DNA from: an uncultured Erysipelotrichaceae bacterium | Lineage (GTDB): Bacteria; Bacillota_I; Bacilli_A; RFN20; CAG-826 | DNA length: 38,831 nt | Assembly: GCA_902803285.1 (NCBI GenBank) | Contig: CADCPC010000041.1 | Coordinates: 1-38,831 of the forward strand | Reading direction: 5' to 3' | Shown here: positions 7,020 through 34,657 of the stretch, in pieces | How the letters are laid out: the number at the start of each line of letters is the position of its first letter | Position numbering within the stretch: the stretch's first letter is position 1 | Position numbers and translations under genes: made by a program | Notes under the pieces: model-generated | Seen by the model: only the letters and a program-made list of their open reading frames with translations | Told to the model about the DNA's origin: nothing | Database searches by the model: none

Positions 7020-7912
7020 AATATTTCTTTGAAATATTCTGGTAATTCTATTTTGAAGTGCATTTCCTTTTTAGTTTTTGGTTGGATAAGTTTTAATTCA
7101 GTAGCCACTAATAATTGCCCACCCTGATAAAGCTTATCATATTTTCTGCCACAATATAGTGGATCTCCTTCAACAGGGTAACCAATATATGAGAAGTGAA
7201 CTCTAATTTGATGAGTTCTACCAGTTTTCAAATGACATTCCACTAGTGTGTGTTCATTAAATCTTTGAAGAACTTTGAAATATGTTACTGCTTCTTTGCT
7301 GTTAGTGCGAGATACCGCCATCTTTTGACGGTTATTAGTATCTCTACCAATAGGAAGATTAATTTCACCACTATTTTCAGCAATCACGCCTCTTACTAAG
7401 GCCGTATAAGTTCTAGCCATTGTGTGGTCTTTAAGTTGCTCTGCTAAGAAGTTATGAGCTACATCATTTTTAGCGACACATATTAACCCACTAGTGTCTT
7501 TATCTATTCTATGGACAATACCTGGACGCTTTTCTCCGTTAATGCCGCTAAGATCGTCGCAATGATTAAGTATCGCATTTACCAAAGTATGTTCGTTATG
7601 ACCAAAGGCAGGATGAACTACCATTCCTTGAGGTTTATTGATGATTAAAATATCGTGATCTTCATAAACAATATCTAATGGTATATCTTCTTTTTCAATT
7701 TTTGCTTCTTTCGCTTCAGGAATGAAAACAACTATTTCATCTCCTTCTTTAACTTTTAAAGACGCTTTAGCTTCCTTTTCATTGACTGTGACATGTCCTT
7801 CATCAATTAAAAGAGCAATGCGAGAACGTGAAAAGTTTTCTAGCAAACTAGAAAGGACTTTGTCTAATCTTTGATTAGATTCATTACTCGTGATCTTTAA
7901 TTTCTGAATCAT
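7001..7912 (-). CDS. rluD: Ribosomal large subunit pseudouridine synthase, RluD family
   Basis: A 303-residue RluA/RluD-family pseudouridine synthase. An S4 RNA-binding domain occupies about residues 12-75 (SNQRLDKVLSSLL). The catalytic motif is GIVHRIDKDTSGL with Asp137, and GRTHQIRVHFSYIGYP follows. It probably modifies 23S rRNA helix 69, as E. coli RluD does. The ATG at 7912 lies inside the 3' end of lspA and has GAGGAAAG upstream; a TTG at 7933 would add seven atypical residues. The order ileS-lspA-rluD is the common Firmicutes arrangement. Its stop lies in the shared terminator with rnhC. Confidence 0.93.
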   Translation of the reverse strand: MIQKLKITSNESNQRLDKVLSSLLENFSRSRIALLIDEGHVTVNEKEAKASLKVKEGDEIVVFIPEAKEAKIEKEDIPLDIVYEDHDILIINKPQGMVVHPAFGHNEHTLVNAILNHCDDLSGINGEKRPGIVHRIDKDTSGLICVAKNDVAHNFLAEQLKDHTMARTYTALVRGVIAENSGEINLPIGRDTNNRQKMAVSRTNSKEAVTYFKVLQRFNEHTLVECHLKTGRTHQIRVHFSYIGYPVEGDPLYCGRKYDKLYQGGQLLVATELKLIQPKTKKEMHFKIELPEYFKEILKKESL

Positions 7913-8564
7913 TTGTATTTTTACTTTCCTCAAGGAGTTGTTGTTTTTCTCTTTCGGTTTTGGAAAGGACTTTTTCTTGTTTAACTTCTTTAACTTCTAC
8001 TTCTTTAAGAGCTTTTCTTTTTTTAGAATAGGCAATAGCTTCATCAACAATCATATAAATAATAAGCATGAAAGCACCGACAACAACTGCGCTATCGGCA
8101 ATATTAAAATTAAATTTCCATACGCCGTAGAAATCAATCCAGTCAACAACGCCTGTTGCACCATCAGCATTTAAATAAGCTGCGCTATAGAAAAGTCTAT
8201 CGATAACATTGCCTAATGCCCCAGCAATAATAAGCATTGCGCAGGCCTTATAATATAGATTAATCTTATCCCACTTTTTCACTAAGAATATGATGATGCC
8301 TACTACGATAAGTATTGCAAAAATAGAGAATACAATCTGGGTTACTAAAGGACTTCCTAAGGAAATTCCAAAGGCGATATTTTGGTTAATTACATAGCTA
8401 ATTCTTAAAAATCCAGGAATTAAAATTATGCCACCTTTTGCGACAATTTCACCTCCATGAGCAATGACAAGATTCTTAGACAAAATATCTAAAAATAAAA
8501 TTAGAACTGCTAACCAGATGAAGGAACGGAATATCCAATTAAGAACATTTTTAAACTTAATCAT
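7884..8564 (-). CDS. lspA: Lipoprotein signal peptidase (signal peptidase II)
   Basis: Aspartyl protease of the membrane that cleaves diacylglyceryl-modified prolipoproteins before the lipobox cysteine. It has four membrane segments and both catalytic motifs: LGNVIDRLF (Asp122) and FNFNIADSAVVVG (Asp157). Usual family length is about 150-170 residues; this one is 226, mainly because of a charged C-terminal tail of about 45 residues rich in Lys and Glu (from KKRKALKEVE). The start overlaps the end of ileS by 8 nt, and rluD begins inside its 3' end. It has clear clients in this window: the two probable lipoproteins at 31597-34657. Confidence 0.95.
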   Translation of the reverse strand: MIKFKNVLNWIFRSFIWLAVLILFLDILSKNLVIAHGGEIVAKGGIILIPGFLRISYVINQNIAFGISLGSPLVTQIVFSIFAILIVVGIIIFLVKKWDKINLYYKACAMLIIAGALGNVIDRLFYSAAYLNADGATGVVDWIDFYGVWKFNFNIADSAVVVGAFMLIIYMIVDEAIAYSKKRKALKEVEVKEVKQEKVLSKTEREKQQLLEESKNTNDSEIKDHE

Positions 8565-28248: not shown

Positions 28249-29436
28249 CTATTTAATCAAATTAATAATGTCATATTCATGTAATGGTTTATCGCATTTA
28301 ATTTTCAAAATATCGCCTGCTACTGTATATATATCCACTTCCTTATCGTCGAGATACATTTCTAATATAGTTATTTTTTCTAATTCTCCTATAGGAGAAT
28401 ATTTATAATATTGGTTATTTTTGATGATCTTATTTTTAACTTCTAGATAAGCATATTTTTCATCAACTTTTCTCACTATTCCTATGTAGTTTCCAGCGTT
28501 AGTAAAATCATGATCTAAATCATAAAGCATTTCATTAACTGTTACATTGCCATGCATAAATCCGTGAGATGTTAATCTATTCTCCGCGTAGATAAGATTA
28601 TTAAAATATGAATCGAAATCCATCTGATTGTTATTTAGATAATCATCAATACATCTACGATAAGTTGAAACGATAAACGCTAAATAATTTAGCGATTTCA
28701 TTCTTCCTTCAATCTTTAAAGATGTAACCCCACTTTCAATTAATGAAGGAATTTCTTTTAATGTGCATAAGTCCTTGCTAGACATAGAAAAATAATCTTC
28801 GTTGCTAAAGAGTTGTTTCTCATTATCGAAAAGATGATATTTCCAACGGCAACTATGTGCGCATCCCCCTCTATTAGCGTCTCTATCAGTCATGATATTA
28901 GAAAGCATACATTTGCCACTATAAGAGGAGCACATTCCCCCATGGATAAATACTTCTATCTCGACATCACTTCTATCACAGATTTCTTTTATCTCATATA
29001 AATCTAATTCTCTTCCTAATACCACTCTAGTCGCGCCCATCTCTTTATAAGTAGAAACTGCCATGGAATTAAGAGTTGATAGCTGTGTGGATATATGGAT
29101 ATCTAATCCAACTTCCTTATTTAATTTGATGATATACATGGAAGAAGTGATAATCGCATCGACACCAATATCTTTTAATGATTTTAAATATCCTAATACA
29201 TCAATCTGATCTTCTTTATGAAGAACCATATTACATGTTACATATACTTTTTTATTTAAAGAATGAGCAAAATCGACACCTTCTTTAATATCTTCCAAAG
29301 TAAAGTTATTAGCAGCACTTCTCAAGGAGAGGAATTTGCCACCAATGTAAACGGCATCTGCTCCATATATCAAAGCAGCCTTTAATCTATCTAAGTCTCC
29401 AGCAGGAGCTAAAAGTTCAATATATTTCGCTCTCAT
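28249..29436 (-). CDS. Peptidase U32-family tRNA hydroxylation protein, TrhP2-like
   Basis: A 395-residue U32 protein. The N-terminus IELLAPAGDLDRLKAALIYG is characteristic, and the signature EVFIHGGMCSSYSGKCMLSN includes Cys169 and Cys176, with Cys192 and Cys196 following in GGCAHSC, consistent with an Fe-S cluster. In B. subtilis two adjacent U32 genes (yrrN, yrrO; TrhP1, TrhP2) make the tRNA wobble modification 5-hydroxyuridine; the same pair occurs here. Despite the family name it is unlikely to be a protease. Its ATG overlaps the TrhP1-like gene by 4 nt (ATGA). Confidence 0.88.
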   Translation of the reverse strand: MRAKYIELLAPAGDLDRLKAALIYGADAVYIGGKFLSLRSAANNFTLEDIKEGVDFAHSLNKKVYVTCNMVLHKEDQIDVLGYLKSLKDIGVDAIITSSMYIIKLNKEVGLDIHISTQLSTLNSMAVSTYKEMGATRVVLGRELDLYEIKEICDRSDVEIEVFIHGGMCSSYSGKCMLSNIMTDRDANRGGCAHSCRWKYHLFDNEKQLFSNEDYFSMSSKDLCTLKEIPSLIESGVTSLKIEGRMKSLNYLAFIVSTYRRCIDDYLNNNQMDFDSYFNNLIYAENRLTSHGFMHGNVTVNEMLYDLDHDFTNAGNYIGIVRKVDEKYAYLEVKNKIIKNNQYYKYSPIGELEKITILEMYLDDKEVDIYTVAGDILKIKCDKPLHEYDIINLIK

Positions 29437-30266
29437 TTTCTAAGTACCGTTTTGTGGTGTTTAAAACCTTCAGGAGAATCATATCCTAATTCCTTATATT
29501 CTTTTAGAATATATTCTCTATCTATTTCTCCTGATATTACTTTGTTTGATAGTTCCACAACTTTAGTGAACATTTCCTGAGATAAGAATATTGAATCAAC
29601 AAATAAATATTCTGCCTCTTTAATATATTCATAATCTTCAACTAGAGAAGAAGGTGCACTTCTAAAAATAACAGAACCATATTCATTTTCAATGATTGGA
29701 TAATGTTCTCCTCTAGTGTTTTCTTTAAGATATAAATCTTTAGATTCAAATCTGATCTTCTTTTCTATTTCATATAGAGAAAGGACTTTACGATAAGATT
29801 GATAAATTGGAGTGTACCCAAATAAACTAACAACCCCATGTCCTTCTTTTAATGTTTCTTTCATTTCTTCAAGAGTAATTTCATTTGAAATATAGGAAGC
29901 TACACCAAAAGAAAGATAATAAGCTTCTAATTCTTCTTTGTTACAGATTAAGGTATATTGGAAGAATAATACCTTGTCTTTATTAACTAAGGTTAATAAG
30001 TATGTCAATAAGCCAACATCCTGAACAATAAAGTTGACATCCAGCTTAATTAATCTGTCCACTTCTTTTTTGACTGCTTCAATATCTTTTTCATGTATCA
30101 AAGCGTTCAATAAAATGTAGATTGGTTTATTCTTAACTGTTTTTATTTCTTCATATGTAAAACAATGTGAGGCAAAGGAAGTATATTTTTCATATCCTAA
30201 AACATATCCATCACAAGGAAGATTTAAGTCAGATAAATCACGAATAGATATTAAAAGTTTAGGCAT
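29433..30266 (-). CDS. U32-family partner protein, TrhP1-like
   Basis: A 277-residue protein weakly resembling the U32 fold: LLISIRDLSDLNLPCDGYVL at the N-terminus corresponds to the first barrel strands, and VNFIVQDVGLLTYLL to the 'D-G-I-I-V-Q-D-x-G' segment of the family. It lacks the Cys cluster of its neighbour. Size and position match B. subtilis YrrN (TrhP1), which precedes YrrO. It probably contributes to tRNA U34 hydroxylation together with the downstream gene. It overlaps the Lit-PPTase gene by 8 nt upstream and the TrhP2-like gene by 4 nt downstream. Confidence 0.75.
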   Translation of the reverse strand: MPKLLISIRDLSDLNLPCDGYVLGYEKYTSFASHCFTYEEIKTVKNKPIYILLNALIHEKDIEAVKKEVDRLIKLDVNFIVQDVGLLTYLLTLVNKDKVLFFQYTLICNKEELEAYYLSFGVASYISNEITLEEMKETLKEGHGVVSLFGYTPIYQSYRKVLSLYEIEKKIRFESKDLYLKENTRGEHYPIIENEYGSVIFRSAPSSLVEDYEYIKEAEYLFVDSIFLSQEMFTKVVELSNKVISGEIDREYILKEYKELGYDSPEGFKHHKTVLRK

Positions 30267-31536
30267 GTTTGACCTCGCTTGGTAAATTATTATCTTTGCT
30301 AACTACGCTTATAATGTAGTCTCCATAGTTAAATGAAGCAAAGAAATAAGTTTCGTTTTGATATAGAAGTGAGTTTTCACTCTTGATAATCACTACTTCT
30401 TGATTAGGTTTTTTAATTATTCCTGTTCCTACACATTTTAATAATGCTTCTTTTATAGTCCACATCTTAACAGGAGAATAGCCCATTACCTCCATGTTTT
30501 TGATTTCATCTTTGCTAAATGAGAATTCAATAAAGGAGTTATCTAGTTCTTTATTTTTCTCGATGTCCACACCAATAAGAGAAGAAGATAAACCAATCAC
30601 TACATAACGTTCTTTATGCGATAAGTTATATTGGATTGGTCCTTTTAATATTGGCTTGTTTTGTTCGTTATAACCAATCTTATGATTGCCTAAATATTCT
30701 TTTTCTAATAATCTCGCTAATAATGAAAGTTTTTGGTCGTTTTCGTTTTTATACGATAAAACCTTTTCTCTATCTTTCCTTTTTAACTTCTTAATGGATT
30801 TTGGTGTCAATCGATCAATTGAATCAACCATCAAGATGGTACTATAAAAAGATGAAACAAATTCTCTTTCTTTCTTGTTTTTATAATCAACAATTCCAAT
30901 AACAATTGAAAGAACAGATATAAGTATCGATAGTCCAATAATGAATACTGCGCACACTAAGAAATATGTTTCAGGAAGAATACGGATTACTTGATCGACA
31001 TTGGGATCAAACACCCAGTTAGATTTTCCTGGGAAGAAGACTTTGTGGAACAAAACAAATAGTGTATCAAAATCAATAGCGGCAAAAATACCAATGGCCG
31101 CTAAAGAAATAATGGTTAAAAATCCACCAAAACTATATAAAGGTAATCTGAGAAAATACACTCTTTTAACTTTGTTAACTTTAATTAAAATATGATAAAT
31201 CAATAGATAAAGAGTAGAGGAGAGCATGAACCATAGCTGCATCCAAAATAGAGGAATGCAATCTCTAAAATGATCAATACCGCTTTCGCTCATTGGTATG
31301 CCTGGATTAAAATCACTTCTCTTCCAAAGGAAATCTATGATATTTGAATAACCATTAACAATGCGCTCGTAAGTAAAGTGACTAGATTCTGGAATGTTTA
31401 ACCAGTTAATCCAAGGAGTATAAAAGCCTTTAAAAAAGCAAGGGATAAACGCTGAAAAAGATATCGCAAACATCATCACTGCGAATATAGAAATAACTCC
31501 AAATAAAATATCAATTAAACGATACTTCTTTTGCAT
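30259..31536 (-). CDS. Lit-like (DUF1461) membrane domain fused to Sfp-type phosphopantetheinyl transferase
   Basis: A 425-residue two-domain protein. Residues 1-220 have four membrane helices and match DUF1461/TIGR01906, the family of Lit (lipoprotein intramolecular transacylase). ESGIDHFRD (His89) and FHKVFFPGKSNWVFDP (His164) align with the family's two conserved histidines, His85 and His157 in B. cereus Lit as I recall. ILPETYF follows. After a linker (220-295), residues 295-415 form a 4'-phosphopantetheinyl transferase with IGVDIEK (Asp324, Glu326) and WTIKEALLK (Lys362, Glu363), the Mg/CoA-binding residues. The N-terminal domain would act at the outer membrane face and the transferase in the cytoplasm. 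First gene of its operon; TAAAAT lies seven bases before the ATG. I know of no characterised protein with this architecture. Confidence 0.82.
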   Translation of the reverse strand: MQKKYRLIDILFGVISIFAVMMFAISFSAFIPCFFKGFYTPWINWLNIPESSHFTYERIVNGYSNIIDFLWKRSDFNPGIPMSESGIDHFRDCIPLFWMQLWFMLSSTLYLLIYHILIKVNKVKRVYFLRLPLYSFGGFLTIISLAAIGIFAAIDFDTLFVLFHKVFFPGKSNWVFDPNVDQVIRILPETYFLVCAVFIIGLSILISVLSIVIGIVDYKNKKEREFVSSFYSTILMVDSIDRLTPKSIKKLKRKDREKVLSYKNENDQKLSLLARLLEKEYLGNHKIGYNEQNKPILKGPIQYNLSHKERYVVIGLSSSLIGVDIEKNKELDNSFIEFSFSKDEIKNMEVMGYSPVKMWTIKEALLKCVGTGIIKKPNQEVVIIKSENSLLYQNETYFFASFNYGDYIISVVSKDNNLPSEVKHA

Positions 31537-31596
31537 GACTATTATTTTAGCATAAAACTATTATTAGTTTTGATAACTTTCATATATAATTTGGAT
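31537..31596. promoter_or_regulatory. Divergent promoter region, Lit-PPTase and S41 lipoprotein genes
   Basis: Minus: extended TGC-TAAAAT (-10 at 31544-31549), seven bases before the ATG. Plus: TATAAT at 31585-31590, six bases before the ATG at 31597. Neither start has a Shine-Dalgarno; both fit leaderless mRNAs. The -35 elements are weak on both strands. Confidence 0.5.
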
Positions 31597-33344
31597 ATGA
31601 AGAAGTTTTCATTTGGTCTAATCGGCCTTTTAGCCATCCTTTTGTAAGCGGATGCTTTTCTAACGGAAATTCAGATATCAAAGATTTTAGAGATTTCATC
31701 GTCCCTCTATATTCTCTTGCCGATAGCAGTACCACTACTGATATTGAGAATTTAAAGATCAAAGAGGTAGTTTTTAAAATTGCTAATTTCGAGCAGGAAG
31801 TGCCTTATATTACTATTAATGAATATGCTTCTTTATATAACAATCTCCTCGCTGAAGGCTATGAATCTAAAATTAATTATTCAACATGGGGCATCTATAA
31901 AGACAATGTTTTACAATTCTATTTTGATGTCGATGTTAATAAAAAAGAAATTACCGTCGCCGGTGATTTAACTAGTACTTTGAAAGATAGACCTGACTAT
32001 TCAAAAACTACATTAAATTACGCGCTTAAGAACGAAGTATTACCTGTTAAATCGACTAGAGCGAGTTATGTCTATAGTTATAAAGATATGGGATTTAGGA
32101 CAGTTACTATCTTAGGACTATCCTATATTCCACTATCATTATTCAATTTAAGTATCTATTCAGAAGCGAATGTCGGATTCTTCTATAACTTTGACGAATC
32201 AAATCTTGGATTATATCAATATAGCGACTATTCACAGTTATCTAACTCATATATTAGAGATGGAGAAGAATTAAATGCATTCTCTAATATTGACGCTTCT
32301 ATCAATAAAACAGGTATAGTGCCAACTAGTTTAGTAAATGACAAACTATCTTCTGTTTGCTATGTATTCACCAATATGTATGGTTTAAAGAGCAAATATC
32401 ATTTCAAAGAAATGAAAGAATATCTAGAGATGAATCAAGAATTATATGATAAGTTTGTTTCTAATAATCTAGAGACATTCAAATCTTCATTAGGAGAATT
32501 AATCGCCTCTTTTGATGATGGCCATACTTCTGTTAGTTCTTCATCCATCACTCCTCTTGGTCTACCTGGACCAAGTCTTGGAGAAATGTGGATGCATAGA
32601 TTAGAAGTTTATCATCAGCTACTAGACGATAGAAAAGCAGTCTATGACTCTTTAGGTCTAGAAGAGGGAGAAGTCATTTATAGCGAAGACTCAACTCTGG
32701 CCTTCTTCCCATTCAATTCATTCCGTTTTGCCTATGATGCTTACGATGAAGATGGTCACTTAACAGAAAAAGCATATAAAGAAGATACGTTTCTAATGCT
32801 TGTTGATAAATTCAACCAAATCAAAGTAAAAGGCACTGTTAAAGATGTCATTGTTGATTTATCTACTAATACAGGTGGAGTTTTAGGAGCAATGATTAAA
32901 ATCTTAGTCCTCATTTCTAAGCATAATCGCGCGACATCATATTTTAAATATGATAATTTAAACGCTATCTTTGGCTATAGCACTCAAGTTGATACCAACC
33001 AAGATGGTAGTTATGACGAAGAAGATGTCTTTGGAGATGACTTTAATATCTATCTATTAACAAGTGAATTATCATTTAGTTGCGGTAATGCCTTACCTTA
33101 TTTAGCAGATAAGAACAACATTGCCACTATCATTGGTAGAACTTCAGGGGGAGGAGAATGTGTAGTTGGATCTAACGTTCTTTCTACTGGTGAATATTTT
33201 ACCCACTCGTCATTAATGCACATTGGATGGTATAATGATGAAGATGGATTTATCGGTGATGAAGATGGAGTTTCTCCTTCTTCAGAATACAAAATGGATT
33301 TAAATAAATATTTTGATATAGAAAACTGGAGGTCAATTCTATGA
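31597..33344 (+). CDS. S41-family (tail-specific protease-like) lipoprotein, frameshifted at the signal peptide
   Basis: The gene begins with an ATG at 31597 encoding MKKFSFGLIGLLAILL, which then hits TAA (31645). One frame over, without interruption to 33344, the sequence reads VSGCFSNG and then a full S41 protein. Adding one T to the T4 run at 31640-31643 gives LLAILFVSGC, a perfect lipobox with Cys20, and a 582-residue lipoprotein. The S41 core has DLSTNTGGVLGAMIKIL and SELSFSCGNALPYL (probable Ser nucleophile in SFSCGN) and RTSGGGECVVGS. Without the frame correction the first possible start is a GTG at 31800, which loses the export signal. The 3' end overlaps the lipase gene by 4 nt. It could be a real lesion, a switch or an assembly error. 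Confidence 0.8.
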
Positions 33345-34657
33345 AAACAAAACTATTAGTGCTATTAGGAATACCTGCCTTACTTATCGGCTGTTCTCCT
33401 AAAACACCTACACCAGAACCAATTGATGATGGTTCAATTAATGTCAGTTCCACCATTCCTTCTTTGGCCCTTGGCAAAGCTGATTACGAATTAAAATTCT
33501 CTTATAACGACAATCTATTTGATGAACCTTCTACCACAATTAATCCGAAATTGGCTATGCTCTCTTATGGATTATCATGTGCCAGTGGTTCAATTGAAGA
33601 AATCGGTCACTTCTACACTCAACTAGAAGCTAAAGATGTTGTCTTATCTGATGCATATGAAGAAACTACAGAACACTCTATCGGATATAGTTTTGCTCAT
33701 AGAAAAACCGATGAAGCCGAAATCGTTTTCACAACAGTGAGAGGCTTCAGTTATACTGAAGAATGGGTTGATAATCTTACAATCGGTTATCAAGGAAACC
33801 ACGAAGGCTTTGAAGCCTGCGCAACAGAAATTTATCGTAGTTTAGAAAACTATTTAGCAACCTTAAAAACGAAGAACGTTAAATTATTAGTTACTGGTTA
33901 TTCTAGAGCTGGTGCTGTATCTAACGTATTAGCACACCTCATTCTCTCTAATACCGCTCCTATCGTTCCTGCTAAAGATGTTTATGTTTATACATATGAG
34001 GCTCCAGGATGTTTATTAGAAGAAAACGCTCCTAAATATAAAAACGTCTTCAATATGGTTAATAGCGCTGACCTTATCCCAATGATTCCACCAACCAAAT
34101 ATGGATTCACTAGATGCGGTACAGATATTGATATTTGTCCAGAAGATGCAGAAACAGTAATTAGAAGATTTGACTCAGATATCAAAGTTCCTACATTTGC
34201 TCCATCTGCAAAATATGAAACAATTCACGAATATAACGAATATGTTATCGACTTCTTATTAAGAGATAGAGGAAGATATAACCTTTCTGAAAGATCAGGA
34301 TTCGTTGATTACTTAGAAGTGCCATTCGGTGCTCTGACGGGAATGTATTTCTCATTAAAGCTCGAAACACAAAATAAATTAATGGCAGACGTTGGTGAAA
34401 AGTCTTACATTGAAATCATAGATTTATTAAACGATGATAACCTCTATAACTTCATTAAGCCTTATCTTGATGAAGATGGCGTGGAATATGATCCTGATTC
34501 ATTTAAAGAAAATTGTTTCTTAGTTTGTGATTTCGTCACCACTATTATGCCTGAATTACTCTCCGAAACTGGATTGATTGGCAATATCTCTTTACCAATC
34601 TTCATGCACTTCCCAGATGTTAACTATCCTCTAGTAGCTAACTACTTCGCTAATTAA
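33341..34657 (+). CDS. Class 3-like lipase, lipoprotein
   Basis: A 438-residue surface lipase-like protein. A lipoprotein signal (MKTKLLVLLGIPALLIGC, lipid-bearing Cys18) is followed by a Pro-rich spacer and an alpha/beta-hydrolase domain. The nucleophile elbow is LLVTGYSRAGAVSNVLAHL with Ser188; RGFSYTEEWVDN (about 134-145) resembles the oxyanion region of class 3 lipases, and NSADLIPMIPP (about 241-251) the acid residue loop. It is probably anchored by diacylglycerol on the outer face and acts on host or environmental lipids. GGAGGTCAATTCT precedes the ATG, which lies in an ATGA overlap with the S41 gene, so the two lipoproteins are coexpressed. Confidence 0.85.
   Translation: MKTKLLVLLGIPALLIGCSPKTPTPEPIDDGSINVSSTIPSLALGKADYELKFSYNDNLFDEPSTTINPKLAMLSYGLSCASGSIEEIGHFYTQLEAKDVVLSDAYEETTEHSIGYSFAHRKTDEAEIVFTTVRGFSYTEEWVDNLTIGYQGNHEGFEACATEIYRSLENYLATLKTKNVKLLVTGYSRAGAVSNVLAHLILSNTAPIVPAKDVYVYTYEAPGCLLEENAPKYKNVFNMVNSADLIPMIPPTKYGFTRCGTDIDICPEDAETVIRRFDSDIKVPTFAPSAKYETIHEYNEYVIDFLLRDRGRYNLSERSGFVDYLEVPFGALTGMYFSLKLETQNKLMADVGEKSYIEIIDLLNDDNLYNFIKPYLDEDGVEYDPDSFKENCFLVCDFVTTIMPELLSETGLIGNISLPIFMHFPDVNYPLVANYFAN

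Follow-up and report, generated by a model that had tools for sequence, protein, structure and literature searches.

The stretch of DNA analysed here, which we call the window, comprises 38,831 nucleotides from an uncultured Erysipelotrichaceae bacterium of animal-gut type, and it belongs to one draft genome only, which is 91% complete and divided over 73 contigs. The gene of interest lies on the minus strand (30259..31536), begins with ATG and encodes 425 amino acids, in which a Lit-like lipoprotein transacylase domain is followed by an Sfp-type phosphopantetheinyl transferase (PPTase). An earlier note on this DNA had described one continuous frame without a stop, and indeed all 425 codons are read in a single uninterrupted frame with zero internal stops. 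The 3′ end of the gene overlaps by 8 bases the start of the next, a U32 peptidase-like gene (29433..30266, minus strand; a weak match to Peptidase_U32), which probably shares its operon and which itself overlaps a TrhP-like U32 peptidase gene (28249..29436, minus strand). Only one other congener (G211) carries this U32 pair, and there neither lit nor a PPTase gene stands in front of it. Beside the fusion gene, on the plus strand, is an S41 peptidase gene with, around 31595-31800, its signal peptide in one frame and its lipobox and mature protein in another; the break, which lies about 110 bp from the start of the fusion gene, may represent a pseudogene, phase variation or an assembly indel.

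The N-terminal half was proposed in the earlier note to be a DUF1461/TIGR01906 membrane domain with both conserved histidines, and this has stood up well. Residues 15-192 (30961..31494, minus strand) match PF07314 with E=1.7e-32 and 113.3 bits against a Pfam cut-off of 24, the protein also exceeds the cut-off of TIGR01906 (100.6 bits, cut-off 74.8), and the Lit fold extends further, to approximately residue 225-230. The narrow Lit equivalog NF051877, on the other hand, is not reached (69.6 bits, cut-off 400), and we have therefore filed the domain under the Lit superfamily (PF07314/TIGR01906) rather than as a proven Lit equivalog, such that its chemistry is suggested by family, fold and histidine dyad only. 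In Bacillus cereus Lit, mutation has shown His85 and His153 to be the catalytic pair (PMC8275575), and these align with His89 (codon 31270..31272, minus strand) and His164 (codon 31045..31047, minus strand) of the fusion protein. His89, Phe163, His164 and Phe168 are invariant in an alignment of 32 Lit rows, and the counterparts of B. cereus Phe157 and Trp162, namely Phe168 and Trp174, have both been kept.

The C-terminal half (residues 234-425; 30262..30837, minus strand) contains a PF01648 match at residues 321-411, with E=3.6e-9 and 37.1 bits against a Pfam cut-off of 25 (40.7 bits in a genome-wide search). The N-terminal pseudo-repeat subdomain typified by AASDHPPT_N scores 24.6 bits, just below its cut-off of 27, and is placed as in Sfp by both AlphaFold2 and Foldseek. 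Alignment identifies the metal-site motif GVDIE, with Asp324 and Glu326 (30559..30567, minus strand), and the motif KEALLK, with Lys362, Glu363 and Lys367 (30436..30453, minus strand); four of these residues had been put forward previously as a complete Sfp-type set, to which Lys367 can now be added. In the numbering of the fusion protein, seven positions do not vary across 32 PPTase rows (K294, H307, D324, W359, K362, E363 and K367), and E326 is nearly invariant. Two profile matches this strong within one frame are far beyond chance, and, judged by their residues, both active sites appear intact. The two halves are also alike in base composition, with a G+C content of 32% versus 30% and a GC3 of 28% each.

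Structure prediction, which the earlier note had suggested as a check, yielded two folded halves. We built the AlphaFold2 model from a 13-row alignment, leaving out alignments that mixed both halves since these put PPTases onto Lit, and the full-length model has a mean pLDDT of 85.9 and a pTM of 0.57. Confidence is mostly above 90 in the Lit half, ranges from 53 to 93 by block in the PPTase half and falls below 50 in a hinge at residues 226-232; there is no confident packing between the halves, whose relative placing is not predicted. The leading Foldseek matches are the Sfp-CoA-PCP structure 4mrt (E=1.1e-10, TMt 0.69) and the Lit structure 7b0p (E=4.3e-10, TMt 0.83), and the four-TM fold and dome of the model superimpose on 7b0p with an rmsd of 2.6-2.9. 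Which side of the protein lies outside is suggested by the homologue: in B. cereus Lit the conserved dome faces the cell exterior (PMC8275575), so that the C terminus of the fusion protein, and hence the PPTase, should be cytoplasmic.

Is this truly one protein? The join (residues 226-233; 30838..30861, minus strand) falls in the low-confidence hinge, approximately where standalone Lit relatives end and standalone PPTases begin. The start methionine of the PPTase relatives aligns with Val227, whose codon GTT is not a start, and the nearest start-like codons in frame, TTG234 and ATG235, come after residues that the relatives keep and lack an evident ribosome site. We found no convincing internal start for the PPTase half, and the coincidence of the join with the standalone boundaries, taken with these codons, fits a precise fusion. 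It is nevertheless conceivable that an assembly or sequencing indel has merged a lit gene with a PPTase gene adjoining it. Our scan of single-base indels indicates that assembly error could in principle create such a join: across much of the junction a one-base indel would end the Lit frame at about residues 216-242 and set the PPTase apart in a frame of its own that partly overlaps it. The assembly is a single draft, and the broken frame of the adjacent S41 gene tells us that base-level errors or gene decay do occur in the vicinity. However, most of the deletion cases would start the PPTase at TTG234/ATG235, depriving it of residues that relatives have and of an evident ribosome site, while most of the insertion cases would put its first start deep within lit. 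The homopolymers of the junction are short (≤5), and an adjacent lit–PPTase pair was seen in no relative examined. The fusion is thus probably real, and we regard an artefact as unlikely.

How widespread is the arrangement? Our survey took in 279 genomes from the order, 395 from the class and 392 from the phylum, sets that overlap and amount to about 745 distinct genomes as judged by their handle numbers, and in none of these did we find Lit and PPTase in one frame, although the separate halves are frequent. Nor was a fusion present in the named genomes or viral contigs that we searched, and none of 36 named Lit loci had a PPTase in the flanks read, which reached about 4 kb unless the contig ended sooner. 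A search of the available literature likewise returned no described Lit-PPTase fusion protein, in keeping with the earlier note, which knew of none. Relatives do possess two separate genes, which is one half of a result that the earlier note would have counted against its reading, the other half being an artefactual frame; rather than showing an artefact, the survey points to a private fusion, confined so far to one lineage and to one genome. The nearest relatives of the Lit half are standalone proteins (G078 at 46% identity and G220, of the same genus, at 38%; tree support 98), and the nearest PPTase by identity (32-40%) is also standalone and comes from another family of the order (G022). 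Both halves sit on long branches (1.17 for Lit; 1.94 for the PPTase, the longest of 32). We had considered that the fused PPTase might be the usual copy of the genus, moved beside lit, but the tree lends this idea no support, placing the domain, on its long branch, outside both of the genus groups.

The genome seems able to provide substrates for both domains. As previously pointed out, the window contains lspA, the gene for signal peptidase II (7884..8564, minus strand), together with at least one convincing lipoprotein that might serve as a Lit client, a lipase-like protein with the lipobox LIGC (33341..34657, plus strand). The genome has two copies of Lgt, and with LspA also present the Lit substrate can be made. 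One of these two (L098:988-2565) is an Lgt-like protein of 525 amino acids with an extra N-terminal membrane part, the other being of normal size. For the PPTase, searches with single families, from which our account of genome content derives, revealed six carrier domains. One ACP lies next to plsX and has a DegV/FakB-like neighbour, a second lies next to thioesterase-like and AMP-ligase-like genes, and a third stands alone; the remaining carriers belong to a ligase-carrier protein, a carrier-reductase and a large NRPS (the names of the neighbours having been read from translations, not profiles). The fused PPTase thus has plausible carrier clients. It may also be redundant, since the only other PF01648 protein of the genome overlaps the start of the NRPS gene; this pairing of a standalone PPTase gene with the beginning of a large NRPS gene is kept, with overlap, in seven examined genomes of the genus (L073:8880-15307, L061, L063, L065, L067, L071 and L075). 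No ketoacyl synthase was detected in the genome, at an assembly completeness of 91%.

Taking these findings together, we consider it probable that the gene encodes a real, end-to-end fusion of Lit/TIGR01906 and Sfp-type PPTase domains, which work independently and of which the second is tethered to the membrane; both activities, their independence and the tethering are what we infer from the evidence above. The Lit half would be a membrane protein, in whose extracellular dome His89 and His164 would act on a lipoprotein bearing a diacylglyceryl-cysteine, moving its sn-2 acyl chain onto the N-terminal amine and so producing the lyso form. The PPTase, on the cytoplasmic C terminus, would transfer phosphopantetheine from CoA to apo carrier proteins, and each activity would run without regard to the other. 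Fusion would give the two a shared expression, along with the U32 gene pair behind them, and would hold the PPTase at the membrane, where some of the carriers (the ACP by plsX, with the FakB/DegV-like gene beside it) may feed phospholipid synthesis; any benefit from such tethering is speculative. A bolder formulation would have an active lipoprotein transacylase serving as the anchor of the PPTase, such that a single protein would take part in acyl metabolism on either side of the membrane and would draw holo-ACP formation to it, in an organism where no ketoacyl synthase was detected, and this we hold to be distinctly unlikely.

Two other readings also accept the fusion. One of the domains might be non-functional and merely carried by the other, as a product of decay or neutral drift, and the long branches of both halves could reflect relaxed constraint of this kind, as the second PPTase in the genome might allow; but no catalytic residue has been lost, both halves have an intact predicted fold, and the open reading frame is without a stop or frame break, which makes decay very unlikely. 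At the other extreme, the membrane-bound PPTase and Lit might serve one pathway, with, for example, acyl supply and acyl remodelling of lipoproteins being tuned together. The attraction is plain, as two enzymes that touch acyl metabolism are here physically fused, and the failure to detect a ketoacyl synthase means that the carriers probably serve exogenous-acyl handling and the NRPS. Against this, Lit shifts an acyl chain within one molecule and has no need of a carrier protein (PMC8275575), the two genes were neither fused nor neighbours in any relative examined, the AlphaFold2 model offers no confident packing of the domains, and in these lineages each family is also joined to partners of unrelated kinds. 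We therefore judge functional coupling to be highly improbable, and of the original proposal that one polypeptide links lipoprotein remodelling with carrier activation, both domains have held up while the functional link has only the fusion itself to speak for it.

Those unrelated partners deserve a closer look, since they make fusion alone weak evidence for joint action. Lit is followed by a HAD hydrolase (PF08282) in a protein of 501 amino acids (L027:664-2169), and by the membrane protein TraX in proteins of 469 amino acids from two species (L083:1682-3091 and L084:1976-3385). TraX acetylates pilin in F plasmids, and a possible role for Lit-TraX is the N-acetylation of lipoproteins. These proteins, from other Bacilli, resemble ours in bearing an extra domain behind Lit and differ in the identity of that domain, and the cytoplasmic C terminus of Lit would seem to be a recurrent landing place for additions. 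Sfp-type PPTases, for their part, form the C-terminal domain of a GNAT-PPTase fusion from the same genus as our host (L076) and of a YjbR-PPTase fusion (L078, in which the Pfam match to YjbR is under its cut-off), the N-terminal partner being soluble in both. In two species (L077:835-2001 and L079:1204-2370) a PPTase is instead extended by a C-terminal domain of about 180 amino acids, which has no Pfam match and looks kinase-like by eye.

Set beside the known enzymes, the novelty is one of domain combination, both enzymes having been described already; when the sequence is compared with proteins of solved structure, B. cereus Lit and B. subtilis Sfp are recovered. With B. cereus Lit (7b0o/7b0p) the fusion protein shares its fold, histidine dyad and the Phe and Trp residues of the pocket at only 26-27% identity, and where the known Lit stops after TM4, here the PPTase follows. 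The C-terminal half has the fold and motif set of Bacillus subtilis Sfp (1qr0/4mrt), yet Sfp is soluble and standalone, whereas the fused domain resides on a membrane protein and has no start codon of its own. The standalone PPTases of the genus that are coupled to an NRPS, including that of the host's own genome (contig C39, L073), are of the same family at 27% identity, and are encoded by a separate gene overlapping the NRPS start. If confirmed, the protein would represent a new combination of two known enzymes and, should the tether matter, an unusual membrane-anchored activator of carrier proteins, and it raises the question of whether a membrane-tethered PPTase favours those carriers that feed phospholipid synthesis. 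As a single private fusion, its general importance is limited.

Among the Lit loci that we surveyed, another arrangement recurs. In about 19 distinct loci from MAGs of Bacilli and Clostridia, one of them of the same genus, a gene of the YhhN family (PF07947, which has lysoplasmalogenase members) lies directly upstream of lit and usually overlaps it (L005:1507-2992, L040:1486-2950, L041:732-2169, L118:3268-4843, L124:3289-4618 and L125:3237-4606, among others). The host of the fusion has four YhhN-family genes in its 1.04 Mb genome (G000 C43:3359, C64:2107, C72:9902 and C52:18594; L137-L140), none of which is beside its Lit gene, and our literature search uncovered no evident link between YhhN and Lit. 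The conservation of the pair suggests a shared pathway, acting perhaps on the lyso-glycerolipid parts of lipoproteins, and this recurrent neighbourhood may prove a better lead than the fusion.
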